64,000 nt of DNA from Klebsiella electrica. GTDB lineage: Bacteria; Pseudomonadota; Gammaproteobacteria; Enterobacterales; Enterobacteriaceae. This document shows, in pieces, positions 4,909-40,296 of the stretch. Made by a program: the position numbers and the translations under genes. The first letter of the stretch is position 1; each line of letters opens with the position of its first letter. The notes beneath the pieces were generated by a model, which made no database searches, had not been told where the DNA came from, and saw only the letters and a list, made by a program, of their open reading frames with translations. The stretch is from positions 3,658,001 to 3,722,000 of the forward strand of contig NZ_CP041247.1 of assembly GCF_006711645.1 (NCBI RefSeq), given 5' to 3'.

Positions 4909-4934
4909 GAGAGATGGCCGGAGATAATCTGCGC

Positions 4935-4960
4935 TCCCCGGGCCAGATACAGCCCGGGGA
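4935..4960. terminator. Strong hairpin between convergent ybhN and ybhL
   Basis: Perfect nine-base stem TCCCCGGGC / GCCCGGGGA around CAGATACA, sited between the two convergent stops. No U-tract follows on either strand, so it may be a shared barrier or a decayed REP rather than a classic intrinsic terminator. Confidence 0.5.
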
Positions 4961-4969
4961 CCCAAAGCC

Positions 4970-5674: not shown

Positions 5675-5719
5675 GACTGTCTCCTGATTAACACGTTTTA
5701 TCTTATTAAGCGTATCACA

Positions 5720-6172
5720 CTACCAGCGCTCTGCCGCCTGGCGATCGCTATCGCGCGCATCTACCCAGCGTTCGCCTTCCGCTGTCGCTTCCCGTTTCCA
5801 GAACGGCGCGCGGGTTTTCAGGTAATCCATAATGAATTCCCCGGCGGCAAACGCGCTGCTGCGGTGCGCGCTGGTCACGCCAACAAACACAATCTCTTCG
5901 CCAGGCCACATTTCGCCGATGCGGTGAATCACCGTCACCCGGCCGAGCGGCCAGCGTTCCCGCGCCAGTTCAACGATTTCCGCCAGCGATTTCTCCGTCA
6001 TTCCCGGATAGTGTTCGAGGGTCAGCGCCTTCACGCTGTCCCCGAGATTGTGGTTACGTACTTTTCCGGTAAACGTGACCACCGCGCCGTCTTCATCGCG
6101 CTCGGCCAGCCACGGATATTCGTCGCCGACGCAAAAACGATCGCGACTGACGATGATGCGAGTCTGCGTCAT
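5720..6172 (-). CDS. moaE: Molybdopterin synthase catalytic subunit
   Basis: 150 residues. MoaE inserts two sulfurs into cyclic pyranopterin monophosphate to form molybdopterin, in a heterotetramer with two MoaD. Conserved parts include FTGKVRNHNLGDSV (about 33-46), the active-site stretch VTSAHRSSAFAA (about 99-110) and KTRAPFWKRE with the catalytic lysine (about 119-128). The start codon abuts the moaD stop. It is the last gene of moaABCDE. Confidence 0.96.
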   Translation of the reverse strand: MTQTRIIVSRDRFCVGDEYPWLAERDEDGAVVTFTGKVRNHNLGDSVKALTLEHYPGMTEKSLAEIVELARERWPLGRVTVIHRIGEMWPGEEIVFVGVTSAHRSSAFAAGEFIMDYLKTRAPFWKREATAEGERWVDARDSDRQAAERW

Positions 6173-6421
6173 TTAACCTCCCGTAACCGGCGGAAAGAAC
6201 GCCACTTCGTCGCCGGACACCAGCGGATGGTCAAAGGGGGTCAGCGTCTGGTTTACCGCCGCCAGCAGCTTGCCCTCTTCCAGCGCCAGCGCCCAACGTT
6301 CGCTGCGACCGGCAAGCTGACGCCGCACGGTTTCGACCGTCGACAGCGCATCGACCTCGAGGGTCAGGGATTCGGTGCCAACCAGTTCGCGCACCTGGGC
6401 AAAAAACAGAACCTTAATCAT
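6173..6421 (-). CDS. moaD: Molybdopterin synthase sulfur carrier subunit
   Basis: 82-residue ubiquitin-like sulfur carrier. It ends in the essential Gly-Gly, which is thiocarboxylated by MoeB and then feeds sulfur into MoaE. The start at 6421 ([13 protein letters not shown]) gives the family length; a longer in-frame extension upstream reads through moaC coding sequence and is not credible. It overlaps the moaC end by eight bases and directly abuts moaE. Confidence 0.95.
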
Positions 6422-6902
6422 GCGTCTCGTCCGCCTTGAAATCCCCGGATTTGCCGCCGCTTTTCGCCAGCAGACGCACCGGGCCAATCACCATATCTTT
6501 TTGTACCGCTTTGCACATATCGTAAATCGTCAGCGCCGCCACGGAGGCGGCGGTCAGCGCTTCCATCTCCACGCCGGTTTTGCCGGTCAGACGGCACAGC
6601 GACTCGATGCGTACCCGGTTGTGTTCCGGCTGAGCCTGCAAATTGACTTCGACTTTACTCAGCATCAGCGGATGGCACAGCGGGATCAGCTCCCAGGTGC
6701 GTTTTGCCGCCTGGATACCGGCGATACGAGCGGTGGCGAAGACATCGCCTTTGCGGTGGCTGCCGTCGATGATCATCGCCAGCGTCGTCGGGCGCATTTC
6801 AACATAGGCTTCAGCCCGGGCTTCGCGTACCGTCTCGGCCTTGGCAGAAACATCGACCATGTGCGCCTCGCCGGCGGCGTTAATATGGGTGAGTTGTGAC
6901 AT
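6414..6902 (-). CDS. moaC: Cyclic pyranopterin monophosphate synthase
   Basis: 162 residues, one more than E. coli MoaC. With MoaA it converts GTP through 3',8-cyclo-GTP to cyclic pyranopterin monophosphate. Conserved [15 protein letters not shown] (about 73-87), [14 protein letters not shown] (about 107-120) and YDMCKA with the catalytic aspartate and KDMVIG are intact. Only three bases separate it from moaB, and its 3' end overlaps moaD. Confidence 0.96.
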
Positions 6903-6905
6903 CGC

Positions 6906-7418
6906 TTATTTCTTAAGATGAGAGATAAAGTTACAGGGCCGCGTACGGGCATCCAGCTGCGGGGCAATGATATTTTCCCACGCGGTACGGCAGGCTTTGG
7001 TTGAGCCCGGCATGGCAAAAATCAGCGTGCGATTCGCCATACCGGCAATGGCGCGGGATTGCAGCGTCGATGTACCGATTTCCTCGAAGGACAGCATGCG
7101 GAAAACTTCGCCAAACCCTTCGACTTCACGGTCAAACAGCGGCCGCAGCGCTTCCGGCGCCTGATCGCCATCGGTAAACCCGGTTCCACCGGTGATCAGC
7201 ACCACCTGCACATCATCGCTGGCTATCCACGCCGAGACCCGGGCGCGGATGTCGTAGCGGTTCTCTTTAACCATCGCCTTATCGACAATATGGTGGCCCA
7301 CCTCCTGCGCCGCATCACGCAGCCAGTGACCAGAGGTATCATCCTCTTCGCCGCGTCGGCTGGAGACGGTGAGAATAGCAATACGGGTTGGGGTAAACTC
7401 AGCGCTGGCCTGACTCAT
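6906..7418 (-). CDS. moaB: MoaB, molybdopterin adenylyltransferase-family protein
   Basis: 170 residues of the MogA/MoaB fold, with the TGGTGF motif (about 86-91) and MPGSTKACRTAWENII (about 144). In E. coli the adenylyltransferase step is carried by MogA and MoaB is dispensable, so its role in the operon is accessory. It lies 22 bases after moaA in the same transcript. Confidence 0.93.
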   Translation of the reverse strand: MSQASAEFTPTRIAILTVSSRRGEEDDTSGHWLRDAAQEVGHHIVDKAMVKENRYDIRARVSAWIASDDVQVVLITGGTGFTDGDQAPEALRPLFDREVEGFGEVFRMLSFEEIGTSTLQSRAIAGMANRTLIFAMPGSTKACRTAWENIIAPQLDARTRPCNFISHLKK

Positions 7419-7440
7419 CTGTTCGCTCCTTTAGAATGAA

Positions 7441-8430
7441 TTATCCGCCAATATACGACAGGTTTTGCGTAATACCGGTGTTGCCCTGATGCAGGAAATG
7501 GGTTTGTTTTTTCTGGGTTAATGCTTCGGAGATGCGCGCTTCCAGCGCCGCCTGCTGCTGGTCCTCGACAAGCAGGTCGCGCAGTTCCACGCCGCCGTCG
7601 CCGAACAGACACAGATGCAGTTTGCCTACGGAGGAGACACGAAGACGGTTGCAGCTGGCGCAGAAATCCTTCTCGTACGGCATGATTAAGCCTATCTCCC
7701 CGGCGTAGTCCGGGTGACAAAAGACCTGGGCCGGACCGTCGCTGCGTTGGCTGATTTGGTGAATCCAGCCGCGACGCAGCAGTTCATTGCGCAGCACGAT
7801 GCCGGAAATGTGGTGGCGTCGGAACAGGTCGCTGCCCTCGCCGGTTTCCATAAGCTCAATAAAACGCAGCTGAATACGTCGGGGCTGGATCCACGCGAGG
7901 AAGGTATCGAGCTGATGATGGTTCACATCGCGCATCAGCACGGTATTGACCTTCACCTTCTCAAAACCGGCGGCAAAGGCGGCATCAATACCGTCCATCA
8001 CCTGGTGAAATTTATCCTGCCCGGTAATGGCGTGAAACTGGCGCGCATCAAGGCTGTCAACGCTGACGTTAATCGCCGTCAGTCCGGCATCACGCCACCG
8101 GCTGACGTCGCGCGCCAGGCGATAGCCATTGGTGGTGACCGCTATCTGGCGAATCGCGCGGTTTTCACCTACGGCGGCGATGATATCGGCAAAGTCGCGG
8201 CGCAAAGAGGGTTCGCCGCCGGTCAGGCGCACCTTCTCGGTGCCGAGCGCAGAAAACGCGCGCGTGACCCGGCGTACTTCATCAACGCTGAGAAAGCCTT
8301 TGTTGGTGACCGCGCCGGGCTTGTAGCCATCCGGCAGGCAGTAGGTGCAACGAAAGTTACACACATCGGTAATCGACAGGCGCAAGTAATAAAACTTACG
8401 CGCAAATGCATCGGTAAGCTGTGAAGCCAT
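7441..8430 (-). CDS. moaA: GTP 3',8-cyclase
   Basis: 329-residue radical-SAM enzyme for the first step of molybdenum cofactor synthesis. The N-terminal cluster motif CNFRCTYC (about 24-31) binds the SAM-cleaving 4Fe-4S cluster. A second cluster is bound by CASCNRLR and the later Cys in LHLCLFG (about 257-275), and the protein ends in the Gly-Gly needed for activity. The start at MASQLTDAF (8430) matches the E. coli length; the in-frame extension upstream lies in the riboswitch leader. Confidence 0.96.
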
Positions 8431-27374: not shown

Positions 27375-28100
27375 TCAGGAAGTGAAATGGCCCTGCAGCC
27401 GGTAGCGGCTACCCGGGAACAGAAGACGGGCGTGGGAGACAATATGCGTGGCTGACCAGGTACGGCGCCGAATCAGCAGGCAAGGATCGTGGGCATGGAT
27501 ATGCAGCAGTTCGCACTCTTTGCCGCTGGCCTGTACCGCTTCGACGATGTGCTCGCCTTCGGTTAACGGCGCAATCAGCGACAAATAATCATGCGGCGTG
27601 GTAACGGTATAGTCCTGCTCTAAATATGCCGGTACCACCGCCGCATTGACGCAGCGGTCTTCAATCTGCACCGCAATATCATTTTCAAAATGGACCATCA
27701 GGGAGTGAAAAATCCGCGTCCCTTCGGCCACATTCAGCGCGGCGGCCTGGATAAGATCGGCTTTCGTCTCTTCCAGCAGCAGTACCTCGCAGCGGTGCTG
27801 ATGGCGACGGGAGGTAATTTCGTCGGCGATGCTACGAACTTCGAACAGCGCCGACTGCCCTTTCGGCTCCGCCACAAAGGTGCCTACGCCCTGCAAACGG
27901 ACCAGTAAACCTTCATCGGTGAGTTCACGCAGCGCCCGATTGATGGTCATGCGACTGAAACCAAACTGCGCCACCAGTTCCGCCTCCGAGGGAATACGGT
28001 CATGGGGACGCCAGACGCCGCGCTGAATCTTTTCGCTGATCGACTGCTTCACCTTTTCATAAAACGGGGCAGGCGCGGTTCGGGGATGCGGTGAAAACAT
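27375..28100 (-). CDS. hutC: Histidine utilisation repressor HutC
   Basis: 241-residue GntR-family (HutC subgroup) repressor that releases DNA on binding urocanate. The N-terminal winged helix (about 8-75) includes GVWRPHDRIPSEAELVAQFG and SRMTINRALRELTDEGLL; the UTRA effector domain follows (about 90-236). The start at 28100 has AAGGA about ten bases upstream; a longer frame from 28133 has no clear ribosome site. The gene once followed hutG, now almost entirely deleted. Confidence 0.94.
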   Translation of the reverse strand: MFSPHPRTAPAPFYEKVKQSISEKIQRGVWRPHDRIPSEAELVAQFGFSRMTINRALRELTDEGLLVRLQGVGTFVAEPKGQSALFEVRSIADEITSRRHQHRCEVLLLEETKADLIQAAALNVAEGTRIFHSLMVHFENDIAVQIEDRCVNAAVVPAYLEQDYTVTTPHDYLSLIAPLTEGEHIVEAVQASGKECELLHIHAHDPCLLIRRRTWSATHIVSHARLLFPGSRYRLQGHFTS

Positions 28101-28136
28101 AGCCTGGCTTTCCTTATGCTCAATGGGCGGCAACGG

Positions 28137-28238
28137 TCAGAATATACTGAATCGTCGGCGCCACCAATGGGCGATTTGCCATGCCCGCCGGGCCGCGCTG
28201 TCGTCACGGTCGGCGAAGGCCAGTCGCCGCAATGTCAT
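28137..28238 (-). pseudogene. hutG: Residue of hutG (formiminoglutamase), core deleted
   Basis: Between hutI and hutC only about 135 bases remain where hutG (about 315 codons in the usual hutI-G-C order) belongs. An ATG overlaps the hutI stop (ATGA), as expected for hutG translational coupling, and opens a 33-codon frame. After six codons it reads FADRDDSAARRAWQIAHWW, which resembles the conserved C-terminal end of arginase/formiminoglutamase proteins (D-R-D-x-x-x-A-R ... A). The identification of the tail is from motif memory. The enzyme is certainly absent here. Confidence 0.6.
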
Positions 28239-29452
28239 TGCATTTCGCCACCCACAACGCGATGCCAGAGCGGGCTCCGCCCCGGTTCGTAGACCATTTC
28301 AACCGGATGTTCCGCATCCCAGATAGCAAAATCGGCAACAAACCCCGCCGCCAGCTGGCCGTGACTATTCTGCCGCCCCAGCGCCTGCGCGGCATGACGC
28401 GTCACGCCGGCCCACGCCTCTTCCGGGGTTAAGCCGAACTTCACGCAGGCCATATTCATCGCCAGGTGCAGGCTGGCAAACGGGCTGGTACCCGGGTTGT
28501 AATCCGTCGCCACCGCCATCGGTACCTGATACTGACGCAGCAGTCCGACCGGCGGTTTACGGGTTTCATTGAGGAAATAGAACGCGCCGGGCAACAGCAC
28601 CGCCACCGTCGCGCTGCGGCTCATCGCCGCCACTCCCTCTTCGGTTAAGTATTCGATATGATCGGCCGAGAGCCCCTGATAACGGCTCACCAGCTGCGCG
28701 CCCCCCAGCGCAGAGAGCTGTTCAACGTGCCCTCTGACCGGAATACCGCGCGCCTGCGCGGCCTGAAACACGCGTTCGGTCTGCTGCGGGCTGAAGCCGA
28801 CGTTTTCGCAGAACACATCAACGCTTTCAAACAGCCCCTCTTCCCATAGCGTCGGCAGCAGAGTTTCACACACCAGCGTGATGTAAGCGTCCGGATCATC
28901 TTTATATTCCGGCGGCGTGGCGTGAGCGGAGAGCAGCGTCGGCGATAGCCCGACCGCATTGTTCTGCGCCAGGCGGCGCGCCACCTGCAGCATTTTGCGT
29001 TCGTTTGCCAGATCCAGTCCATAGCCGGATTTAATTTCAAGCGTGGTCACCCCTTCGCGAAGCAGACGATCCAGTCGCTGCTGGGCCAGCGCTAACAGCT
29101 GCGCTTCGCTGCTTTCACGGGTAGCGCGCACCGTTGAGTTAATGCCGCCGCCGTTGGCGCTGATCGTCTGGTAGGAGACGCCGTTCAGCCGCTGTTCCCA
29201 CTCCTGCGCCCGACTACCGCCGAAGACCAGATGGGTGTGGCAATCGATCAGCCCCGGCGTCAGCAGCCTGCCGCCAAGATCGATGCTCCGCCCGGCCGGG
29301 GCATCGTTTTCCGGCACAATGGCTTCAATCCGGCCATTGCGCACCAGCAGCGCATGACGATCCCGCAGGCCGTAAGGCTGCGAATCATCGGGGGTCAGAG
29401 TGGCAAGGCGGGCATTGCGCCAGATAACGCGTTCGGAGGTGGCTTCAGTCAT
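28235..29452 (-). CDS. hutI: Imidazolonepropionase
   Basis: 405-residue amidohydrolase-superfamily metalloenzyme cleaving imidazolone propionate to N-formimino-glutamate. Metal ligands are visible in [14 protein letters not shown] (about 67-80), in [12 protein letters not shown] (His about 247) and the late aspartate in [12 protein letters not shown] (about 320). The start at [16 protein letters not shown] follows the family; the ribosome site is weak. A longer frame to 29494 reads through the operator and is less likely. Confidence 0.94.
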
Positions 29453-29472
29453 CGCAGTCAACTTGTCATGGG

Positions 29473-29484
29473 TTGTATAGACAT
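29473..29484. promoter_or_regulatory. HutC operator of hutI
   Basis: TTGTATAGACAT, a palindrome with two mismatched pairs, about 20 bases upstream of the hutI ATG. The remaining 29.5-29.8 kb gap holds a TATAAT (about 29702) that may be the ybhC -10. Confidence 0.6.
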
Positions 29485-29818
29485 TTATTTTCATTCTCCG
29501 CGAAATGTCAATAAAAGCAGAGGAAATGGTTATTTTTTTGTGACCAGATGCGACAAGGACGTCGGCCCGGTGAGCGGTTTAGGCGAACTTTTTCGCGCAG
29601 CGTCTTCCCGTTTCGCTCAACTTAGTATAAAAAGCAGGTTTTAAAGGACGTTATACGCGTAATTCATTCCTTGTCGGCCTGACGCCGCTTGCATGTTTTT
29701 TGTATAATGCCCGCCCCAATCATTCGGGTTGCTTTGCGGCGGAAATCAACACCTACGCCATCAAAAAGGCAGCCAGAAGAATGACAGGTTTTGTTAATTG
29801 ATTCTTGCCCGGAGCAAC

Positions 29819-31102
29819 ATGAACACATTCTCAGTTTCCCGCCTGACGCTGGCACTGGCTTTTGGCGTGACGTTATCCGCCTGTAGCTCAACCCCTGCCG
29901 ATCAACAGCCCTCGACGCAGACTGCGCCGGGCACCGCCTCTCGCCCTGTGTTAACCGCTGATGAAGCGAAGAATTTCACTCCGGCAAGCTATTTCCAGTC
30001 CCTGGATCCCAACGCCGCAGCGTGGACCCCGACGGCCATCAGCATCCCGTCTCAGCCTGACTTCGTCGTCGGCCCGGCGGGCGCCCAGGGCGTGACCCAT
30101 ACCACCATTCAGGCCGCGGTTGATGCAGCTATCGCCCGTCACTCCAATCGTCGTCAGTTTATTGCGATTATGCCGGGTGAATATACGGGTACCGTGTATG
30201 TCCCTGCGGCACCCGGCGCGCTGACGCTATACGGCACCGGCGAGAAGCCGCTGGATGTGAAAATCAGCCAGGCCATTGACTCGCAAATGGACGTGACCAG
30301 CTGGCGCCACCTGGTCAACCCGGCCGGCAAATATATGCCGGGTAAACCGGCGTGGTATATGTTTGACAGCTGCCAGAGCAAACGCGCCGCCACCGTCGGC
30401 GTGATGTGTTCCGCGGTATTCTGGTCGCAGAACACCGGCCTGCAGCTGCAGAACCTGACCATCGCCAACAACCTTGGCGACAGCGTGGATGCCGGGACTC
30501 ACCAGGCCGTTGCGCTGCGCAGCGATGGCGACCAGGTACAGATTAACAACGTCAACATTCTCGGTCGCCAGAACACTTTCTTCGTCACCAACAGCGGCGT
30601 GCAGAACCGTCTGCAAAACGATCGCCAGACCCGCACCCTGGTGAGCAACAGCTACATCGAAGGCGATGTTGATATCGTTTCCGGCCGCGGTGCCGTGGTG
30701 TTTGATAACACCGATTTCCGCGTCGTGAATTCACGTACGCAGAAAGAGGCCTACGTCTTTGCACCGGCAACGTTGAAAAGCGTCACCTACGGCTTCCTGG
30801 CCGTGAACAGTCGCTTTACCGCCGCCGGCAACGGCGTGGCACAGCTGGGGCGCTCTCTTGATGTCGACAGCGCCACCAATGGCCAGGTTGTCATCCGCGA
30901 CAGCGCCATCAATGAAGGCTTCAACGTGGCGAAGCCGTGGGCCGATGCGGCCATTTCCAACCGCGCGTTCAGCGGCAACACCGGTGCTGTGGATGCGAAA
31001 GGCGTGCCGCAGCGTAATCTCAACGACAGCAGCTTCAACCGCATGTGGGAATACAATAACCGCGGCGTTGGCAGCGTGATTGTCGCAGAGCCGAAGCAGT
31101 AA
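29819..31102 (+). CDS. ybhC: YbhC, outer-membrane lipoprotein of the pectinesterase family (acyl-CoA thioesterase)
   Basis: 427 residues, identical in length to E. coli YbhC. The N terminus is a lipoprotein signal ending in LSACSS. The right-handed beta-helix body has the family's GRQNTFF and YIEGDVDIVSGRGAVVFDN motifs (catalytic aspartates) and WADAAIS near the end. The E. coli protein lacks real pectinesterase activity and is reported as an acyl-CoA thioesterase. GGAG precedes the ATG at 29819; an upstream in-frame start is rejected because it would bury the signal. Confidence 0.93.
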   Translation: MNTFSVSRLTLALAFGVTLSACSSTPADQQPSTQTAPGTASRPVLTADEAKNFTPASYFQSLDPNAAAWTPTAISIPSQPDFVVGPAGAQGVTHTTIQAAVDAAIARHSNRRQFIAIMPGEYTGTVYVPAAPGALTLYGTGEKPLDVKISQAIDSQMDVTSWRHLVNPAGKYMPGKPAWYMFDSCQSKRAATVGVMCSAVFWSQNTGLQLQNLTIANNLGDSVDAGTHQAVALRSDGDQVQINNVNILGRQNTFFVTNSGVQNRLQNDRQTRTLVSNSYIEGDVDIVSGRGAVVFDNTDFRVVNSRTQKEAYVFAPATLKSVTYGFLAVNSRFTAAGNGVAQLGRSLDVDSATNGQVVIRDSAINEGFNVAKPWADAAISNRAFSGNTGAVDAKGVPQRNLNDSSFNRMWEYNNRGVGSVIVAEPKQ

Positions 31103-31112
31103 CGCTTAGCAA

Positions 31113-31140
31113 GGGGGAGCGCGTCTCCCCCTTCTTCTTG
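31113..31140 (+). terminator. Rho-independent terminator after ybhC
   Basis: Stem GGGGGAG / CTCCCCC with a CGCGT loop followed by the T-rich TTCTTCTTG, eleven bases after the ybhC stop. Confidence 0.75.
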
Positions 31141-31370
31141 CGCTATTTTGCTTAGCGACTTTCTCTTGCGCTTTCTCCTGCGCTCCACGCCCGCAATACA
31201 TCCCCAGCGCAGCGGCTTTTGTCGCACGTGCAAAAAATATCATTTTTCGGCGAATAAAAATCCCCGCTGATGCGTTTACTCACAGTAAGAACACCACGAC
31301 CTTCCGGCACGGTTCACCCCAAGATGGGACGGCGCCGGGTTACCCGCATCGCGACTCATGGAGACGAAAA

Positions 31371-31922
31371 ATGAACGCACTTATCTTATCGATTCAGCCG
31401 GCTGCGCGCCGCTTAATGGTTCCGGCACTGCTATGTTTGTTATACGCATCGCCGTCATTCGCCATGGGTGATAACAGCACCCAGAGCAAAACGCCGGACT
31501 GCCCCAGCGGGCAGGTTTATGACAGCGTCAGCAAACAGTGCGTCCCGGATAAAACCAGCAACCTTAGCGATCGGGATAAAACCAACTACGCCTATCATCT
31601 GGCGAAAAAAGGGCAGTATCAGGCGGCACTGAACCTGCTGGACTCGCTGAAAAACGGCAACACGGCAGAGGCCTGGAACTATCGCGGCTATGCCACCCGT
31701 AAGCTCGGACGTACCGATGAAGGGATTGGCTATTATCAGCGCGCGCTGGCGCTTAAGCCCGACTACGCCAAAGCGCGTGAGTATCTTGGCGAAGCGTGGA
31801 TGGTAAAAGGCCGCCGGGATCTGGCGCAGGAACAGCTTAAAGTGATCTCCGGGATTTGCGGTCAACGCTGCGAGGAGTATCGCGATTTGCAGGCCGCCAT
31901 TAACGGACACCCGGAATCCTGA
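31371..31922 (+). CDS. Exported TPR protein with two Cys pairs
   Basis: 183 residues. A signal peptide (about 1-31, ending PSFA) is followed by a segment with two Cys (CPSGQVYDSVSKQC), TPR helices (about 68-153: YHLAKKGQYQAALNLL, NYRGYATRKLGRTDEGIGYYQRALALKPDYAKAREYLGEAWM) and a final CGQRC pair. Probably periplasmic, with disulfide-capable cysteines. First gene of an island with ECF sigma factors, peroxiredoxin and a DsbD-like protein, 22 bases before the first sigma gene. No named family recognised; a redox-sensing or scaffold role would be inference. Confidence 0.85.
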   Translation: MNALILSIQPAARRLMVPALLCLLYASPSFAMGDNSTQSKTPDCPSGQVYDSVSKQCVPDKTSNLSDRDKTNYAYHLAKKGQYQAALNLLDSLKNGNTAEAWNYRGYATRKLGRTDEGIGYYQRALALKPDYAKAREYLGEAWMVKGRRDLAQEQLKVISGICGQRCEEYRDLQAAINGHPES

Positions 31923-31944
31923 AGGTCATCGCGAGGGTAAAAAA

Positions 31945-32460
31945 ATTACAACCAGCGACGTTCGTTCACAACTTGCCGCACATCTGGCCCGTCTTTGGCG
32001 CTACGGGCTGATTCTGTCGCGCAATCGCGATATTGCCGAAGAGCTGGTTCAGTCAACCTGCGTTCGCGCGCTCGAACGGAGCGCGCAGTTTACGCCGGGT
32101 ACCCGCATCGACCGGTGGCTGTTCACTATTCTTCACTCCATCTGGATTTCCGAACTGCGGGCGCGTCACGTCCGAATGGGGCAAGGCTTCGTCGAAACCG
32201 ACCCGCTGCTCGCCGCCGATGACCGTGAAATGAATAAAGATCATCGTCAGTATCAGCAGCTTATGCGCCAGGTCAGCGCCCTGCCGGAAGCCCAACGCAA
32301 CGCGGTATTTTTAGTTTATGTTGAAGGTTTTACCTATCAGGAGGCGGCCGACACGCTATCGGTCCCCATCGGTACGGTGATGAGCCGGCTGGCGGCGGCG
32401 CGATCGACGCTGGCAAAAACGCTCAGTCCCGCCCCTTCAGCCAGGGAGAAACGCTTGTGA
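31945..32460 (+). CDS. ECF sigma factor 1, probable ATT start codon
   Basis: 171-residue ECF sigma factor. Region 2 is clear in ARLWRYGLILSRNRDIAEE and LVQSTCVRALERS, with RIDRWLFTILHSIWISELR; region 4 is LPEAQRNAVFLVYVEGFTYQ ... GTVMSRLAAAR. The frame is open from 31846, but no ATG, GTG or TTG occurs before the ATG at 32176, which would remove all of region 2. An ATT at 31945 lies seven bases after GAGGG, ideal for initiation, so I call that as the start. It is coupled downstream to its anti-sigma by a GTGA overlap. Confidence 0.85.
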   Translation: MTTSDVRSQLAAHLARLWRYGLILSRNRDIAEELVQSTCVRALERSAQFTPGTRIDRWLFTILHSIWISELRARHVRMGQGFVETDPLLAADDREMNKDHRQYQQLMRQVSALPEAQRNAVFLVYVEGFTYQEAADTLSVPIGTVMSRLAAARSTLAKTLSPAPSAREKRL

Positions 32461-33260
32461 AATCATCCTTTTTTACGCCCCCCTATAGCGATGAGGCCAT
32501 TATTGCCTGGCTGGACGGCGAAATGAGCACTCCCGACGCCCGCCGCTTTGAAGCCGCCCTCCGGGAGGATCGGCAGCTGGCCGCACGCACTGCCGAACTG
32601 AAGAGCAAGCCGCAGAATTATCAGCAGGCGTTTGCCCCGCTGCTGGAACAGGCTCCCGTCGCGCGCATGCAGAGCCGGCTTGATGCCCAGTTGGCCGCGC
32701 TGTCCGCGGCGGACATCCCGACACGCCCCCCGGCCTTTAGCCGCCGTGCCATGATTGCCGCCTCGCTCACTTTTTTACTGATCGGCAGCGGCTTAGGCTA
32801 TCTGGCCCGTCCCGAGGCCGACGAACCTGATGAGAGCGAGAACATTCGCGATCTTGAAGCCCGTTACATGTCGCTTTATAGCGCGGAAACTCTGCTCGCT
32901 CTGGACAGTTCACCGGCGATATTACAGCGCGGCCTGACGCGTACCGCCGAAGATATTGGTTTAGCGCTCAAGCCGCAGCAGCTCGCGCTGCCGGGTGCCG
33001 AGCTAAAAATGGTGCGCATCCTGCGCTACGAGCGAACCACCATTGCGCAGATCGCCTGGATTCACGCGGCGTATGGACCGATGGCGCTGTGCATCTCTAC
33101 GGCCAGCCAGCAAAACGATGCGAGGATAAACGCCGAACGGCGGCACGGCATGAACCTCGCCTGGTGGCGCGCTAACGGATATCAGTTCGTGCTGATTGGC
33201 CGCAATCCTGATGCGCAATTACAGGCTAACGCCAGCGAATTGCAGCGCTTACTGTCATAA
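32457..33260 (+). CDS. Membrane anti-sigma factor (RsiW-like) partner of ECF sigma 1
   Basis: 267 residues starting with GTG that overlaps the sigma stop. The N-terminal cytoplasmic part (about 1-90) contains AIIAWLDGEMSTPDARRFEA, the typical anti-sigma opening. A single membrane helix lies at about 93-115 (MIAASLTFLLIGSGLGYLA), then a periplasmic domain (about 118-267). No zinc ZAS motif (HxxxCxxC) is visible. The overlap and topology indicate that it sequesters ECF sigma 1 at the membrane. Signal unknown. Confidence 0.82.
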   Translation: MKSSFFTPPYSDEAIIAWLDGEMSTPDARRFEAALREDRQLAARTAELKSKPQNYQQAFAPLLEQAPVARMQSRLDAQLAALSAADIPTRPPAFSRRAMIAASLTFLLIGSGLGYLARPEADEPDESENIRDLEARYMSLYSAETLLALDSSPAILQRGLTRTAEDIGLALKPQQLALPGAELKMVRILRYERTTIAQIAWIHAAYGPMALCISTASQQNDARINAERRHGMNLAWWRANGYQFVLIGRNPDAQLQANASELQRLLS

Positions 33261-33429
33261 CCAGCGTCGCCCTTCGGGGCGAGGTTGTCCTCAGCCTCGT
33301 TGAGGATTGCCGTCGGTCATCGCGCCTGGCGCTAAATATTTTTCCCCCGGCGAAACTTTCTTTCTCACTGCGGCGAACTGTATAGCAGAGTCACCTGACC
33401 AGAACGCCCTGACATCGCTGGAGCTCATA

Positions 33430-34002
33430 ATGAAACTGATGAAAAACCTCGCCCGTTCTTTGACCCTGACCGTGGCGCTTGGCCTGTCCGCCACCGCCTT
33501 TAACGTCAACGCGGCGCTGCCCGTCGGCGCGCAAGCCCCCGCTTTCGAACTGCAGGGTGCCTTAGCCGGTAAACCGATCGCCTTCTCCTTGCAGCAGGCT
33601 TTGCAAAAGGGGCCGGTGGTGCTCTATTTCTTCCCGGCGGCCTTTACCGCTGGCTGCACCATTGAGGCCCACGATTTTGCCGAAGCCACCGATGAATTCA
33701 ACAAAATGGGCGCCACCGTCATCGGCGTCACCGCCGGTAACACCGACCAGGTCAGCGATTTTTCTAAACTGGAGTGCCGCGATAAGTTCGCCGTCGCCGC
33801 GGATCCGGGGGCGAAAGTGGCCGCACAGTATCAAACGCTAATGGAGATGAAGGGCAAGACCGTCTCCGACCGGACTTCATTTGTCATTGCGCCGGACAGA
33901 ACGATTCTGCTCAGCTACACCGACCGAAATCCGGACGCTCATATCGAGAAAACGCTGGCCGCCGTCAAGCAGTACGACGCCGCCCACCCGCAAACCCACT
34001 AA
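33430..34002 (+). CDS. Periplasmic peroxiredoxin (AhpC/TSA family)
   Basis: 190 residues with a signal peptide (about 1-28, ending NVNA). The thioredoxin-fold peroxidase has FFPAAFTAGCT with peroxidatic C76 in the T-x-x-C context and a second Cys, C116 (SKLECRDKF), that could resolve it. A conserved Arg follows later. The start at 33430 has GGAG eight bases upstream; a longer frame is rejected as it hides the signal. It is followed 15 bases later by a DsbD-like carrier, suggesting that the carrier reduces it in the periplasm. Confidence 0.88.
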   Translation: MKLMKNLARSLTLTVALGLSATAFNVNAALPVGAQAPAFELQGALAGKPIAFSLQQALQKGPVVLYFFPAAFTAGCTIEAHDFAEATDEFNKMGATVIGVTAGNTDQVSDFSKLECRDKFAVAADPGAKVAAQYQTLMEMKGKTVSDRTSFVIAPDRTILLSYTDRNPDAHIEKTLAAVKQYDAAHPQTH

Positions 34003-34017
34003 GCAAAGAGGCCAGCG

Positions 34018-35256
34018 ATGCTCACCGCCATGCTGGCCGCCTTTATTGGCGGCATCATCCTCAACTTTATGCCCTGCGTTTTTCCGGTCATCTCCCTGAA
34101 AGCACTCGGGCTTCTGCGCCATACGGATAACGCCGTGGGCGCTCGTCGCGAAGGGCTGGCTTTTTTACTTGGTGTGCTGGTCACCATGCTGCTGCTAGCC
34201 GCTGTTCTGCTGGCTGCCCGCGCCGGCGGTGCCGCCGTTGGCTGGGGGTTCCAGCTGCAATCGCCGCTGGTGATTGCCCTGCTTGCGCTGGTGATCCTCG
34301 CCGCCGCGCTTAACCTGCTGGGGGTGTTCGAAGTCGGTCTATCGGCGCAGCGCGTCGGCGGGCTGGAGATTGGCCGCGGCGCCTTTTTACGCTCGGCGAT
34401 GACCGGCGCGCTGGCTATCGTCGTTGCGACCCCGTGCGCGGCGCCGTTTATGGCCAGCGCGATTGGCTATGCGCTGGTGCAGCCGCCGGCTACCGCGCTG
34501 GCCGTGTTTTTTGCCCTCGCGCTCGGCTTTTCCGCTCCGTTCACTCTCGTCTCGCTGTTTCCGGCGCTGGCGGCACTCCTCCCTCGCCCTGGCGCCTGGA
34601 TGGATATACTTAAACGTGCGCTGGCCTTTCCGATGTTCGGCGCTTACGCCTGGCTGGTCTGGGTGCTGGCGCAGCAGGCCGGTAACAGCGCGCTGGCAAC
34701 ACTACTGGCGGTCTCCATGGCGCTCAGTTTTGCCGCCTGGATCTATGGCATCGCCCAGCAGCGTCGCTTTCAGGGCAAAGGGCATAAGCGCCTGTTCGCC
34801 GTCACCGGCCTGCTCGCCGTCGCGGTTATTGCCCCGCTGGCCGGTCTGATTCAGGCTGATTCCGTGTCGCCCGGCGCACAGACTGTCGCGACCGCCGAAA
34901 CCGCTGCGGAAAAATGGACGCCGCAGGCCGTCGAGGCGCAGCGCGGCCACGGCAAAGCTATCTTTGTTAACTTCACCGCCTCCTGGTGTATCACCTGCCA
35001 GGTTAACGAAAAGACATCGCTTTCAACCCAGGCCGTTAAAGAGGCGCTGGCAAAAACCGGGACGCTGTATATGGTGGCAGACTCGACTAAATTTAATCCG
35101 GACGTCGATGATGCGCTGAATCAATTTGGTCAGGGCGGCTTGCCGCTGTACGTGGTCTATCCTGCCGATGGCGGGCCGCCGAAAGTCCTGCCGCAGATTC
35201 TGACGCCGGGCATTGTCGTGAACGCACTGAACCAGGCAACCGGCAACAAAGCGTAA
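34018..35256 (+). CDS. DsbD-like transmembrane thiol-disulfide carrier without the N-terminal alpha domain
   Basis: 412 residues. About eight membrane helices carry the paired Cys of the DsbD beta domain, C20 in NFMPCVFPV and C140 in ATPCAAPF. The C-terminal thioredoxin domain (about 300-412) has WCITC (C324, C327) like DsbD gamma. The periplasmic alpha domain present in DsbD and ScsB is absent, so the protein begins directly with helix 1. It would move electrons from cytoplasmic thioredoxin to a periplasmic acceptor, most simply the neighbouring peroxiredoxin. AAAGAGG lies six bases before the ATG. Confidence 0.88.
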   Translation: MLTAMLAAFIGGIILNFMPCVFPVISLKALGLLRHTDNAVGARREGLAFLLGVLVTMLLLAAVLLAARAGGAAVGWGFQLQSPLVIALLALVILAAALNLLGVFEVGLSAQRVGGLEIGRGAFLRSAMTGALAIVVATPCAAPFMASAIGYALVQPPATALAVFFALALGFSAPFTLVSLFPALAALLPRPGAWMDILKRALAFPMFGAYAWLVWVLAQQAGNSALATLLAVSMALSFAAWIYGIAQQRRFQGKGHKRLFAVTGLLAVAVIAPLAGLIQADSVSPGAQTVATAETAAEKWTPQAVEAQRGHGKAIFVNFTASWCITCQVNEKTSLSTQAVKEALAKTGTLYMVADSTKFNPDVDDALNQFGQGGLPLYVVYPADGGPPKVLPQILTPGIVVNALNQATGNKA

Positions 35257-35273
35257 ACGCAACAAGGCGGATT

Positions 35274-35825
35274 ATGGACATAAACGATAGCGCACGTGAA
35301 AGCTGGCCCACGCTAATGGAGCAGGCGCAGGCGGGCGATCAGCTCGCCTACACCCGGCTGTTAAAAGCGCTGGTGCCGGTGATTCGTTCGCAGATACGTA
35401 AGCGAATCGCCGACGACGCGTTAGTGGAAGATGTCATTCAGGATGTGCTGCTGACGGTGCATCGGGTACGCCATACCTACGATCCGACCTACCCTTTTTT
35501 GCCCTGGCTGATGGCAATTATCTCGGCGCGGGCCGTTGATGCGCTGCGCCGTCGCGGCCGCTATCAGCAGTGGGAGATCCCTGAAGAGACGCTGCCGGAA
35601 CCGGCAACCTCCCCGGATCCGCAAAAACGGGATAGCCGGGAGGAGCTGGCAGGCTATTTGCGCCAGCTCCCCTCCCGCCAACGAGCCATTGTGGAGCACG
35701 TCCATCTGCGCGAAATGAGCCTGACGGAAGCCGCTGCACATAATAATCTGAGTGTCGCCGCAGTGAAATCGCTGCTGCATCGGGCGCTGAAAAACCTGCG
35801 CCGTTTTGGAGCTCATCATGACTAA
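35274..35825 (+). CDS. ECF sigma factor 2
   Basis: 183-residue ECF sigma factor. Region 2 shows ALVEDVIQDVLLTVHRVRHT and PFLPWLMAIISARAVDALRR; region 4 is LPSRQRAIVEHVHLREMSLT ... VAAVKSLLHRALKNLRR. It starts 17 bases after the DsbD-like gene and its last eight bases overlap the NrsF-like gene, the usual arrangement of SigF-NrsF pairs. It is clearly different from ECF sigma 1, so the island has two independent sigma factors. Confidence 0.92.
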   Translation: MDINDSARESWPTLMEQAQAGDQLAYTRLLKALVPVIRSQIRKRIADDALVEDVIQDVLLTVHRVRHTYDPTYPFLPWLMAIISARAVDALRRRGRYQQWEIPEETLPEPATSPDPQKRDSREELAGYLRQLPSRQRAIVEHVHLREMSLTEAAAHNNLSVAAVKSLLHRALKNLRRFGAHHD

Positions 35826-36447
35826 TCATGACCTGTTAATTGACAAACTGGGGCGCGACATGCGGCCGGTGAAACGCCTGCCGTCGACCGGCAGGCGGGT
35901 TCTGAGCTGGCTGGCAGCGGCGCTGCCGTGCGCGGTGGCCGCCAGTTTCCTTGTGCAACGCAGTCCGACCGACTGGTCACAGCCCGGCGCCCCTCTGGCG
36001 GTGGTGCAGCTGGTGCTGGCTTTTGCGCTCGGCGCGCTGGCGATTCGCAGCGCCTTCACGATGAGTATTGCCGGCCGGCGTTCGCTCAGCTGGAAAGCCC
36101 TGCTGCCGATTGGGCTGATGTGGCTGGGGTTGAGTATCAGCAGCATTCCCTATCCGGCGCTGCGGGTGGCGGAGAGCGACAGCACGCCCTGCTTTACCTT
36201 TTTGCTGGTGGTCAGCACGCCAATGATGGCGCTGATGATTGCCAGTCTGCGCCGCAGCCGAACGCTGCATCCGGTGCGCAGCCTGGCAATGGCGGGACTG
36301 GGCATTGCCAGCATGGCGGTCAGCCTGCTGGCGTTTTGCCATCCGGTGCATCTGCATCCGATGGATTTTGTCATGCATCTGGCGGCGATCGTCACCATAG
36401 TGGCGCTGACGGTGCTGGTTGGCAGGCGCTGGGTGGCGCTGGATTAA
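35818..36447 (+). CDS. NrsF-like (DUF1109) membrane anti-sigma factor
   Basis: 209 residues, six predicted membrane helices (about 27-45, 61-83, 93-113, 124-143, 155-173, 181-203). Cysteines lie in the first helix (Cys about 38), in DSTPCFTF and in LLAFCHPVHLHPMDF, the last also rich in His; such residues could sense metals or oxidants, as Cys of Caulobacter NrsF do. The ATG at 35818 has GGAG six bases upstream and overlaps the sigma gene; a TTG at 35806 is the alternative. Name by family resemblance. Confidence 0.82.
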   Translation: MTNHDLLIDKLGRDMRPVKRLPSTGRRVLSWLAAALPCAVAASFLVQRSPTDWSQPGAPLAVVQLVLAFALGALAIRSAFTMSIAGRRSLSWKALLPIGLMWLGLSISSIPYPALRVAESDSTPCFTFLLVVSTPMMALMIASLRRSRTLHPVRSLAMAGLGIASMAVSLLAFCHPVHLHPMDFVMHLAAIVTIVALTVLVGRRWVALD

Positions 36448-36520
36448 CGCTCTGCCGCCTCTCAGCGCTATCGGGTGAATGGCGCTTTGCCTGCCAGCCT
36501 CTCAGGCTGCGCGAACCGAT

Positions 36521-36547
36521 AAAAAAACCTCGCGCGGCGAGGTTTTT
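36521..36547. terminator. Bidirectional terminator between nrsF-like gene and pgl
   Basis: AAAAAACCTCGC-GCG-GCGAGGTTTTT: an eight-base GC stem with A- and T-runs on both sides, between convergent genes. Confidence 0.85.
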
Positions 36548-36558
36548 ATCTCAGCAAA

Positions 36559-37554
36559 TTAGTGAGCGTTAACGACCACCCACATTGGCCCCTGACCGAC
36601 GGCATAGCGCCCTTTCTCTTTCAATAGTCCCTGCTCACCGGCAATCTCATAGACCGCAATATGGTGGGATTTCTGCCCCGCCGCTATCAGATATTTACCG
36701 CTGTGATCGAGGTTGAAACCGCGCGGCTGCGCTTCCGTCGGCTGATACCCTTCGACGGACAGCACGCTGCCATCCTCGGATACGCTGAAAATGGTGATGA
36801 TGCTGGCGGTGCGGTCACAGGCGTACAGGTGACGGCCATCCGGCGTCAGATGAATATCCGCCGCCCAGCGTACGCCGGTAAAATCGCCAGGCATCATATC
36901 CAGCGTCTGGACGCACTCAATTTCGCCATGCGGATCTTTCAGCTCCCAGACGTCAACGGAGCTGTTCAGTTCGTTCACACAGTAGCCGTATTGCTGATTC
37001 GGGTGGAACACCATGTGACGCGGGCCAGCTCCTTCAACGGTGGTCACTTCCGCCGGTTCTTGCGCGGCGAGGAATCCATCATCGCCGAGGGTAAACAGGC
37101 AAATACGATCCTGTTTCAGCGCCGGGACCCACAGGGTGCGGTTGTCGGGAGAAATATTGGCCGAGTGGCACCCTTCCAGCCCTTCCACAACGGCCACCGT
37201 TTCACCCGGCAGGCCATCGGTCAGCGGAGTAACGCTCACGCAGCCGGCGTTATAGGACGCGCTGAAGACAAAACGGCCCTGATGATCGGTCGAAATATGC
37301 GTCGGGCTGCCCGGCAGCGCCGCTTCGCCAGCGAAAGTCAGCGCGCCGTTATCGGGCGCAATGCGGTAAGCCAGGACGCGAAACTCCGGACGTACGCCAA
37401 CATAGAGATACTCTTTATTCGGGCTCACCACCATCGGCTGAACCTGACCCGGGGCATCGACAACCTGAACAAGCTTCAGGTTACCCTCAAGATCGAGACT
37501 CCAGACATGAATCTGCTGGCTTTCCGGGCTGGCGGTATAAACGGTTTGTTTCAT
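36559..37554 (-). CDS. pgl: 6-phosphogluconolactonase
   Basis: 331 residues, E. coli length, seven-bladed beta-propeller of the YbhE type. Hydrolyses 6-phosphogluconolactone in the oxidative pentose phosphate path. Typical stretches are [44 protein letters not shown] and the repeated [14 protein letters not shown]. The start at MKQTVYT is set by family and the good GGAGCAG ribosome site. Confidence 0.95.
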
Positions 37555-37727
37555 GACTGCTCCTTTCCTCACTGCACAGGGAAAACGTATACATTTCATT
37601 CATCAGGCGATTGGGCTGATGCAATGTATAGACTCTTTTAACGGTAGATGCTGAAAAATTTGCCCCGCTGGCATAGCGGTGTACCATCGTGCCAGGCACT
37701 TTTTTCATCATTAACCGGAAACAACAC

Positions 37728-38546
37728 ATGACATCACGCGTGATTGCACTGGATTTAGACGGCACCCTGCTCACCTCCAACAAAACTATTCTGCCCGCTT
37801 CGCTGGAAGCCCTGGCCCGCGCCAGAGAGGCGGGGTTCCAGGTGATCGTCGTCACTGGCCGACATCACGTCGCTATCCACCCTTTTTATCAGGCACTGGC
37901 TCTGGATACACCTGCAATTTGTTGTAATGGCACTTATTTGTATGATTATCAGGCAAAAAAGGTTCTGCAGTCCGATCCGATGCCGGTCGATAAGGCGTTG
38001 AGCCTGACCGATATGCTCGCCGCTCACGATATCCACGGCCTGATGTATGTTGACGACGCCATGCTCTATGAACGCCCGACCGGCCACGTTATCCGTACGA
38101 CCCGCTGGGCACAGTCGCTGCCGGTCGAGCAACGTCCGGTGTTCACTCAGGTCGATTCGCTGGCGCAGGCTGCCCGCGACGTCCAGTCGGTGTGGAAGTT
38201 TGCTCTCACCGATGAAGATATTCCTAAGCTGCAACAGTTTGCCCTTGATGTGGGACAGACGCTGGGGCTGGAGTGTGAATGGTCGTGGCACGATCAGGTC
38301 GATATCGCCCGCGCGGGCAACAGCAAAGGCAAACGCCTGGCGCAGTGGGTGGAAGCCCAGGGCCTGTCGATGCAGGATGTGGTGGCCTTTGGCGATAACT
38401 ATAATGACCTCAGTATGCTGGAAGCCGCCGGAACCGGCGTGGCGATGGGCAATGCGGTTGAGGAAGTCAAAGCGCGCGCCAACGTGGTCATTGGCGAAAA
38501 CGAAAGCAACAGTATTGCCGACTTCATCAACCGCAACCTGCTGTAA
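37728..38546 (+). CDS. ybhA: YbhA, HAD-family sugar/PLP phosphatase
   Basis: 272-residue Cof-type (IIB) HAD hydrolase. Motif I DLDGTLL (about 8-14), motif II VVTGR (about 43-47), the lysine in SKGKRLAQW and motif IV FGDNYNDLSML (about 223-233) are all present. E. coli YbhA dephosphorylates pyridoxal phosphate and sugar phosphates in vitro. Its stop directly abuts the stop of convergent modC. Confidence 0.93.
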   Translation: MTSRVIALDLDGTLLTSNKTILPASLEALARAREAGFQVIVVTGRHHVAIHPFYQALALDTPAICCNGTYLYDYQAKKVLQSDPMPVDKALSLTDMLAAHDIHGLMYVDDAMLYERPTGHVIRTTRWAQSLPVEQRPVFTQVDSLAQAARDVQSVWKFALTDEDIPKLQQFALDVGQTLGLECEWSWHDQVDIARAGNSKGKRLAQWVEAQGLSMQDVVAFGDNYNDLSMLEAAGTGVAMGNAVEEVKARANVVIGENESNSIADFINRNLL

Positions 38547-39605
38547 TCAGGCGGCAATCGAAACGCTTTTAATCTGCGCATACAGCCATTGGCCTGGCGT
38601 AATCCCCAGGTCATCTCTGGCCCATGGGCTGATGCGCGCCCACAGCGTGCGGCCGCTGAGGCTCAACTGCACTTCAATCTGCCCGTGTGTTTCAATACAC
38701 TGCACCACCTGCGCCGGCAAAATATTGCGAATGCTGGTCTGCTGCGGCTGTTCGAGCACCAGCGATACGTCGGAGGCCTGGATGCGAATTCGCGTCGCCT
38801 CGCCGACTGGCCGGTCGAGATAGTTCACCCAGATCTGCTGCTCACCCAGCGCCAGCGCGGTCATGGCATAGCGGGGATGCTGCGCGGCAACGGACAGGTT
38901 CAGTATTGTGCTCTGTTGATCCGGCGGTAGCCACGGATGCATCACGCTGCTGCTCCATACCTCTTCCAGGTCGCCAAAGGCTTTGACTCGCCCCTCCTCC
39001 AGCACCAGCACTTTATCCGCCAGATGTTGAATCTCATCCAGCGAGTGGCTGACGTAGAGCATCGGAATATGTATTTCACGCGCCAGCCGCTGCAGGTACG
39101 GCAGCAGCTCGCGTTTACGAGGAATATCCAGCGAGGCCAGCGGTTCATCAAGCAGCAACAGCTCAGGGGCGGTGAGAAGCGCTCTGCCAATGGCCACCCG
39201 TTGTTTTTCTCCGCCGGACAGGCCGCCCGGCAGGCGCTCAAGCAGCGGTTCAATACCGAGCAGCGCCACCAGCTTATCAAACTGCCCCGCCATGCTTTTC
39301 GCCATGCCGTACTTCAGATTGCCGCGTACCTTGTAGTGTGGAAACAGGCGCGCGTCCTGGAACACATAGCCCACCCGCCGCTTTTCCGGGGCCAGGCAGA
39401 TACGTTTTTCGGTATCATTCAAGACCCTGCCGTTGAGCACGATCCGCCCTTTCTGCGGCCGGGTCAGGCCGCTGATGGCATTAATCAGAGAGGTTTTGCC
39501 CGCGCCGGAGACGCCAAAAACAGCGGTGATGCCGCTGGCAGGCAGCGTTTCATTAATACTCAGGCAGTGGTTACCCAGCGTCTGGGTGAAATGGAGTTCA
39601 AGCAT
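38547..39605 (-). CDS. modC: Molybdate ABC transporter ATP-binding protein
   Basis: 352 residues. ATPase domain with Walker [12 protein letters not shown] (about 31-41), signature [15 protein letters not shown] (about 130-144) and Walker B LLLLDEP, followed by a C-terminal Mop-type regulatory domain (about 290-352). Starts inside the end of modB (eight-base overlap), last gene of modABC. Confidence 0.96.
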
Positions 39606-40296
39606 CTGATTTCCCCGTCCGCACGCGGCTAAGACGCGCCAGCCATTCAGAAACCAGTAGCGATACCAGCGCCAGCACGATGGAAATCAAACATAAACGT
39701 GCGGCAGCCCCTTCGCCGCCCGGAGTCTGAATCAGGGTATACATTGCCGAAGGAATGGTGCGCGTTTCCCCCGGGATATTGGAGACAAAGGTAATGGTGG
39801 CGCCAAACTCCCCTAGCGAGCGGGCGAAGGCCAGAACGGTACCGACGATAATGCCCGGCAGCGTCAGCGGCAGCGTTATCGTAAAAAACACCCGCCAACG
39901 GCCCGCCCCCAGGGTTCGCGCCGCCTGTTCCAGCCTGACGTCCACCCCTTCCAGCGCCAGGCGAATGGCCCGCACCATCAGCGGAAACGACATGACCGCC
40001 GCCGCCAGCACCGCCCCGCGCCAGCTGAAGGCAAAGGTCAAACCGAACCAGTCATACAGCCAACTGCCGATAAAACCACGCCGCCCCATGGCAATCAACA
40101 GCAGGTAGCCCACCACCACCGGCGGCAGCACCAGCGGCAGGTGGATAATACTGTCGAGCAGCGCCTTTCCGGGGAAATTGCGCCGCACCAGCAACCATGA
40201 GATAAAAATCCCAAAAGGTAAGCTTAACACCACCGCCAGGGATGAGACTTTCAGGCTCAGCAGTACCGCCTGCCATTCGGGATCGCTTAAAATCAT
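39598..40296 (-). CDS. modB: Molybdate ABC transporter permease
   Basis: 232 residues, five to six membrane helices, with the permease EAA loop [21 protein letters not shown] (about 142-162), which docks on ModC. Its ATG overlaps the modA stop by one base (TAATG). Confidence 0.96.

Follow-up and report, generated by a model that had tools for sequence, protein, structure and literature searches.

Two adjacent ECF sigma factor modules in the ybhC–pgl interval of Klebsiella electrica, one of which appears to use a near-cognate start codon

Introduction

The Caulobacter sigma factor SigF, of the extracytoplasmic function (ECF) class, answers dichromate and cadmium and recognizes the promoter sequence GTAACC-N16-CGAA (PMC3511200); the corresponding sequence for the Brucella ECF16 pair BcrS–AbcS, which answers hypochlorous acid (HOCl), is (T/C)GTAAC-N17-CGAA (PMC8315932). 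In Streptomyces, the GTC start of sigR is repressed by initiation factor IF3, and the anti-sigma factor stays in excess (PMC5472188). Other genes known to have non-canonical starts are infC and pcnB of Escherichia coli (PMC4245954), and infC, cvfC1 and ccpN of Staphylococcus aureus (PMC13009471). In Burkholderia, the YceI lipocalin BcnA and the cytochrome b561 LcoA protect from lipid peroxyl radicals (PMC9113575). These and the other published systems are cited here as given in the consulted parts of the respective papers. Against this background, we describe a cluster of seven genes encoding two ECF sigma factors, each with its own anti-sigma factor, in a 64,000-nucleotide stretch of the Klebsiella electrica genome (contig NZ_CP041247.1, positions 3,658,001 to 3,722,000; hereafter, the window).

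The interpretation that we favour, with a probability of about 0.78, is that the cluster consists of two self-contained ECF switches lying side by side in the variable ybhC–pgl site, of which one (module B) would be a thiol-peroxidase switch, and the other (module A) a switch of lipid-peroxide type. The modules themselves belong to known kinds of system; what is new here is a sigma factor, sigma 1 of module A, that appears to lack an ordinary start codon, and its conserved AUU/AUC start is the feature that most merits experiment.

Two modules with separate distributions

The seven genes lie between ybhC and pgl, all on the forward strand at positions 31371–36447, as had been stated in the initial annotation, which was made from the sequence of the window; the ybhJ, ybhI, ybhH and ybhD genes that it ascribed to the equivalent gap in E. 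coli were found there in an E. coli genome. Judged from sequence comparison across genomes, the seven genes are two separate modules, each kept as a unit: module A comprises tpr and the genes for sigma 1 and anti-sigma 1, and module B comprises prx, a short dsbD, the gene for the SigF-like sigma 2, and nrsF. Pfam agrees with the original gene-by-gene list (a TPR protein, two sigma factors, a peroxiredoxin, a thiol carrier and NrsF), except for the type of anti-sigma 1.

After removal of repeats, and with the window included, the modules adjoin in four of 28 distinct module B loci and in 4/23 module A loci; these four represent one Raoultella lineage, with the cluster at ybhC–pgl, and form a single clade on the sigma 1 tree. 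The host genome (5.8 Mb) encodes an NrsF that shares 98% identity with its counterpart in Raoultella ornithinolytica. Among 15 named loci, located via NrsF, the order prx–dsbD–sigma2–nrsF is seen in every one, and module A stands beside it in three (R. ornithinolytica, R. planticola and Raoultella sp. BIGb0138). Module B is likewise present in 16/16 further loci (one frame-broken, four being repeats of named loci), and tpr–sigma1–antisigma1 in 19/19 further anti-sigma 1 loci (one frame-broken), with module B absent from the surrounding stretch of ~11 kb. Across these further loci, either module may stand alone, or the two are present at separate places. Repeats (L090, L091, L094 and L095) and frame-broken loci (L089 and L079) were dropped before conserved cysteines were counted. 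The occupancy of the ybhC–pgl site also varies: genome G153 (L080) has module B alone there, and G161 and G165 have module A alone, their module B being elsewhere. Both modules are present but apart in G001, G028, G115, G161 and G165; in Erwinia sp. S63 and Pantoea rodasii (where tpr and sigma 1 were found), they are split between contigs, giving seven genomes in total with the two modules far apart or on separate contigs.

Within the genus (20 genomes), nrsF was found in 12, anti-sigma 1 in eight and both in seven; for the family (149 genomes), the corresponding numbers are 10, 17 and four. At the level of the class, the anti-sigma 1 profile matches 58/369 genomes, many over the N-terminal part only, and the module B NrsF profile gives one weak match in these 369 besides the host genome. 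None of 29 class-level anti-sigma 1 loci has a tpr match, and one of them (L170) has no sigma match. No DNA-level match to module A was found in 5,426 E. coli genomes (proteins were not searched there). The initial annotation had made its proposal depend on co-inheritance of the gene set: the seven genes are not inherited together, and each module taken alone is.

Module B: a probable thiol-peroxidase switch

Upstream of prx lies an element of SigF type, GAAACTTTCTTTCTCACTGCGGCGAACT (33352–33379, forward strand), with a spacer of 16 nucleotides. The pattern GNAAC[CT]-N16-CGAA[CT] occurs upstream of prx in 30/30 regions scanned, 26 of them distinct (26 of the 28 distinct loci; L085 and L089, for which no start was called, were left out), and the module A element occurs in none. 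The second base of the −35 element is A or C, except in L082, where it is T. In its strict form, the pattern has 27 matches in the 20 genomes of the genus, versus two for the backwards control; 12 of these are at prx, one for each genome bearing module B (12/12), and the sole match in the host genome is that at prx.

The first gene, prx (33430–34002, forward strand; Pfam AhpC-TSA), encodes a PrxQ/BCP-like peroxiredoxin with a signal-like N-terminus, as judged by eye; hydropathy analysis gives no segment above the cut-off. Cys76 and Cys116 are kept in 27/27 sequences, and a profile search of the Protein Data Bank (PDB) matches BCP-type chains. In PrxQ/BCP proteins, the resolving cysteine is placed five residues past the peroxidatic one, although subtypes with a distant resolving cysteine exist. 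Prx shares with this class the AhpC-TSA domain and the conserved peroxidatic cysteine, but lacks a cysteine at +5, the second cysteine being 40 residues on.

The adjacent short DsbD (34018–35256, forward strand; 412 residues) has an eight-segment membrane domain, supported by DsbD_TM and hydropathy, and a C-terminal thioredoxin fold with a CITC motif. It aligns with the DsbD model from model position 171 of 574 onwards, and the first hydrophobic segment spans residues 4–22; thus, the protein shares with DsbD the membrane-domain cysteine pair and the C-terminal CxxC, but not the N-terminal alpha domain, which is absent. Cys140, Cys324 and Cys327 are kept in 27/27 sequences, and Cys20 in 26/27. 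In Erwinia sp. S63 and P. rodasii (L034 and L035), the dsbD match falls in two pieces, reflecting either a frame break or an assembly error. The pairing of a thiol carrier with a peroxiredoxin, to which the initial annotation had drawn attention, recurs in every module B locus seen. The Caulobacter ScsB–TlpA–PprX pathway shares a membrane thiol carrier that feeds a cell-envelope peroxiredoxin; the module B operon differs from it in having no TlpA-like relay and a carrier without the N-terminal domain (PMC5403849).

The remaining two genes encode sigma 2 (35274–35825, forward strand; Sigma70_r2/r4) and an NrsF-family membrane anti-sigma factor (35818–36447, forward strand), the latter matching PF06532 with 43.9 bits against a cut-off of 26.8 and having six segments by hydropathy. 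Cys125 and Cys174 of NrsF are kept in 27/27 sequences. The earlier identification of sigma 2 and the six-helix protein as a SigF–NrsF pair fits by domain, by the two conserved cysteines and by promoter type. In 30/30 Pseudomonadota loci tested, a sigma gene lying ≤1.5 kb from NrsF is matched by the sigma proteins of module B. Features in common with the described SigF–NrsF/ECF16 systems are the NrsF domain, the six segments, the −10 sequence CGAA, the 16-nucleotide spacer, and a cysteine pair some 50 residues apart (Cys125/Cys174 here, compared with Cys131/Cys181 and Cys129/Cys179 there); differences are the −35 sequence, which is GTAAC there and mostly GAAAC or GCAAC in module B, the presence of the peroxiredoxin and short DsbD as operon cargo, and the divergence of NrsF (PMC3511200, PMC8315932). 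On sequence, the module B NrsF is a divergent branch of a family whose PF06532 domain is matched in 81/398 genomes of the phylum. Neither prx nor dsbD was found ≤1.5 kb from NrsF in any of the 30 best-scoring phylum loci, a search that would miss more distant cargo; for weaker PF06532 matches, no locus was examined.

Module B looks like a thiol-peroxidase switch. In the mechanism that we propose, NrsF would hold sigma 2 until oxidation of its two conserved cysteines frees it, and the freed sigma 2 would drive a single promoter, that of prx–dsbD–sigma2–nrsF. The exported peroxiredoxin would remove peroxide, with the short DsbD passing electrons to it from cytoplasmic thioredoxin. If so, the SigF–NrsF family gains a peroxiredoxin–DsbD cargo. 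The Shewanella RpoE2–ChrR system is comparable in that an ECF switch is set over a periplasmic peroxidase, PgpD, but it employs ChrR and a glutathione peroxidase (PMC4336711) in place of NrsF and PrxQ–DsbD.

Module B might instead serve in hypochlorite or metal resistance, like other SigF–NrsF systems, with peroxide as a side substrate. The responses of Caulobacter SigF to dichromate and cadmium (PMC3511200) and of the Brucella pair to HOCl (PMC8315932), together with the retention of the like-spaced NrsF cysteine pair, lend this some credence; against it, the cargo differs, as is apparent from the 30 strong NrsF loci elsewhere, and the peroxiredoxin–carrier pair points to peroxides. We consider such a role possible, albeit the less likely of the two. 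The consulted part of a report on the Klebsiella chromate transcriptome contains no mention of a peroxiredoxin, of DUF1109 or of an anti-sigma factor (PMC8195247).

Module A: a different promoter element with putative targets beyond the operon

The putative −35/−10 element of sigma 1, CGAATAAAAATCCCCGCTGATGCGTTTAC (31251–31279, forward strand), lies upstream of tpr and is one of three strict-pattern matches in the host genome, a further one being at a YceI gene. The element, GAATAR-N14/15-YGTTHAC, is present in 25/25 module A loci, the gap being 15 in 25/28 matches. Directly upstream of tpr, GAATA-N16/17-GTT[TC]AC was found in 15/23 regions scanned (L079, with no start called, was excluded); in the remaining eight, tpr is preceded by a cytochrome b561 gene (six regions), the element is a variant (one) or there is none (L036). 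A slightly looser version of this pattern was found in 21/21 further module A loci scanned whole. Where cytochrome b561 leads the operon, the element precedes it (6/6 loci), and it also precedes the adjoining yceI in 6/7 loci (two of the seven being plasmids of one species). The strict pattern gives 19 matches in the genus, versus six for the backwards control: eight are at tpr, one for each genome bearing module A (8/8), and three are at YceI or cytochrome b561 genes. A match in L134, which overlaps the start of a riboflavin synthase-like gene, was set aside as likely chance.

Pfam assigns these additional putative targets to PF01292 (cytochrome b561) and PF04264 (YceI), with two proteins each; the same two families make up the LcoA–BcnA system, for which control by a sigma factor is not mentioned in the consulted part of the paper (PMC9113575). 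No paper linking YceI, cytochrome b561 and an ECF sigma factor was found among the open-licence PubMed Central (PMC) papers. By analogy, module A looks like a lipid-peroxide switch of LcoA–BcnA type, in which a membrane anti-sigma factor with a putatively RseB-like periplasmic domain would hold sigma 1, and freed sigma 1 would drive its own operon and the YceI lipocalin, and, in many genomes, also cytochrome b561. Were this so, a cytochrome b561–YceI lipid-peroxide defence would be tied to a dedicated ECF switch.

Anti-sigma 1 (32457–33260, forward strand) consists of an N-terminal region, one transmembrane segment and a periplasmic domain that moderately resembles the C-terminal domain of RseB/MucB; its gene overlaps the sigma 1 stop by four nucleotides in 21/22 loci. 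The protein had been called RsiW-like at the outset, a description that now looks weak. Zinc-binding anti-sigma factors of RsiW/RsrA type carry the motif HxxxCxxC. Anti-sigma 1 has a single cysteine, Cys212, situated behind the transmembrane segment, and, therefore, has no Cys-based zinc motif; moreover, the match to zf-HC2 is below threshold (19.9 bits versus a cut-off of 22.2). The TPR protein (tpr, 31371–31922, forward strand; Pfam TPR) has a signal-like N-terminus, which coincides with its one hydropathy segment, and four cysteines (44, 57, 163 and 167) that are kept in 23/23 sequences; these and a GHPE motif near the C-terminus are invariant in 21 aligned rows.

A number of observations sit less easily with two independent switches. 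The strict module B pattern also occurs in recF/gyrB coding DNA in eight genomes of the genus and in seven other places (the recF/gyrB matches were set aside as likely chance), and, of the 19 strict module A matches, eight are not at tpr, yceI or cytochrome b561 genes, including three in genomes that lack module A; the yceI gene in L066 has no module A element. Export of the peroxiredoxin was judged by eye, the fold match of anti-sigma 1 (RseB/MucB C-terminal domain type) is moderate, and tblastn with the module B NrsF proteins found no match in 30 phylum NrsF loci. Finally, the two modules co-occur slightly more often than expected by chance (P = 0.054 for the genus and 0.016 for the family, uncorrected for relatedness), and, in L036 (Enterobacteriaceae bacterium UBA2655), tpr immediately precedes prx in the absence of sigma 1.

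Some of these points would favour a single integrated island, as the initial annotation had it, in which a single thiol-peroxidase pathway is under the joint control of two sensors and the exported, cysteine-bearing TPR protein is a shared client or sensor; same-strand adjacency in the four Raoultella-type loci and the invariance of the four TPR cysteines may be added to the co-occurrence and the L036 arrangement. Such an island is, nonetheless, improbable: the modules are inherited separately and located elsewhere in other genomes, in the scanned regions prx lacks the module A element and tpr lacks that of module B, and the module A element is found again not at thiol genes but in front of genes for YceI and cytochrome b561. 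Given separate inheritance and different promoter elements, the notion of two sensors acting on one thiol pathway is not supported, and the single seven-gene island was rejected in favour of two switches. Adjacency in a single lineage can mislead; it was comparison across genomes that resolved the two systems.

In L036, which has the tpr–prx adjacency (positions 6872–8132), neither sigma 1 nor anti-sigma 1 is matched in the locus, and the scanned region lacks a module A element; the TPR protein may have been recruited to module B there.

The start codon of sigma 1

The open reading frame list places the start of sigma 1 at 32176, which is inside the gene; the most likely true start is an ATT codon at 31945, from which sigma 1 (31945–32460, forward strand; Sigma70_r2/r4) has 171 residues. 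In 34 loci (L143, from the same species as L142, being omitted), the codon at this position is ATC in 22, ATT in 10, ATA in one and GTG in one, but never ATG; ATH is, therefore, present in 33/34, the sole exception being the GTG of L075. For the other genes, ATG was preferred over GTG and TTG, such that the counts denote an ATG available at the aligned start: this is the case for tpr in 23/23, sigma 2 in 27/27, nrsF in 27/27, prx in 26/27 and dsbD in 26/27. Anti-sigma 1 starts with ATG in 13, GTG in five and TTG in four.

A Shine-Dalgarno-like GAGG is located at 31933–31936 (forward strand), and conservation upstream of the start is highest at positions −12 to −9, with the exception of the A at −2. 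A Shine-Dalgarno-like match 5–9 nucleotides upstream of the start is present in 31/32 loci. Downstream of the start, conservation follows a triplet pattern (.78/.87/.58 for the three codon positions), and upstream it is flat (.53/.44/.51); 15/32 loci have no ATG, GTG or TTG between the upstream in-frame stop and codon +15. Parsimony requires seven start-codon changes on the 32-row tree, or six on 30 rows when the fragmentary L073 and L079 are omitted. In distant sigma homologues of the class, a canonical codon is found within codons −9 to +5 in 28/28; the non-canonical start, thus, looks derived in the Enterobacteriaceae. Taken together, translation of sigma 1 appears to begin at a very rare start codon, one that is retained in many enterobacterial genomes.

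There are data that pull the other way: L076 has no standard Shine-Dalgarno match, 17/32 loci contain some ATG, GTG or TTG in the open frame by codon +15, and in 6/32 one falls within codons −9 to +5, at the start position itself only in L075 (this count and the 28/28 were read off alignment listings). One could, therefore, suppose that synthesis of sigma 1 starts at a canonical codon further upstream or inside the gene, or results from a frameshift out of tpr, and that ATH is merely a conserved isoleucine. Database starts are indeed inconsistent: among the 120 best homologues, 22 have their first residue at precisely this position (with ATH established at the DNA level only for L028, whose genome was also inspected), and, in RefSeq, two Pantoea plasmid copies begin 22 codons (GTG) and five codons (ATC) further in. 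Such an alternative start seems very unlikely, as there are 15/32 loci with no canonical codon from the upstream stop to codon +15, initiation at 32176 would lose sigma region 2, and the triplet pattern of conservation begins only downstream of ATH. Frameshifting from tpr was rejected on account of stop codons that lie in frame, one or two codons before ATH, in L076, L070 and L079.

The closest precedent for an ATH start of sigma 1 that we found in the open-licence PMC literature is Streptomyces SigR. Like module A, the SigR–RsrA system pairs an oxidative stress sigma factor, whose non-canonical start is conserved, with a co-transcribed anti-sigma gene overlapping the sigma stop; module A differs in having AUU/AUC rather than GTC, a Gram-negative host, another regulon, and an anti-sigma factor that is a membrane protein without a Cys-based zinc motif (PMC5472188). 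As for SigR, the near-cognate start would keep sigma 1 scarcer than anti-sigma 1 in an IF3-sensitive manner. On balance, we lean towards the view that sigma 1 is a second, independently evolved stress sigma factor with a selected near-cognate AUU/AUC start, through which IF3 and the state of translation would set the sigma to anti-sigma ratio in a response to membrane-lipid oxidative stress. If true, this would be an Enterobacteriaceae parallel to the SigR GTC start, and the tuning of stress sigma factors by IF3 would become directly testable in E. coli K-12. Hidden near-cognate starts, misplaced by annotation pipelines, may even be a recurrent design in sigma switches.

Other features of the locus

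An Rfam scan of positions 28000–40000 found no family at the gathering threshold, and sigma-70 promoter-like sites are at chance level (2 versus 2.1). Between anti-sigma 1 and prx, there is a hairpin sequence with a UUCG loop, CGCCCTTCGGGGCG (33268–33281), which lacks an evident T tract and may, or may not, act as a boundary between the two operons.

Both modules are also seen on plasmids. Module B is carried by large Pantoea plasmids (e.g. L024, plasmid pSOD02), and, of 136 plasmid records that match Prx, 93 are from Pantoea. Module A, for its part, is found on a plasmid of Pantoea agglomerans (L142, positions 4458–6918), where it is flanked by a Gfo/Idh/MocA oxidoreductase gene on one side and a convergent yceI on the other, near arnBCA.

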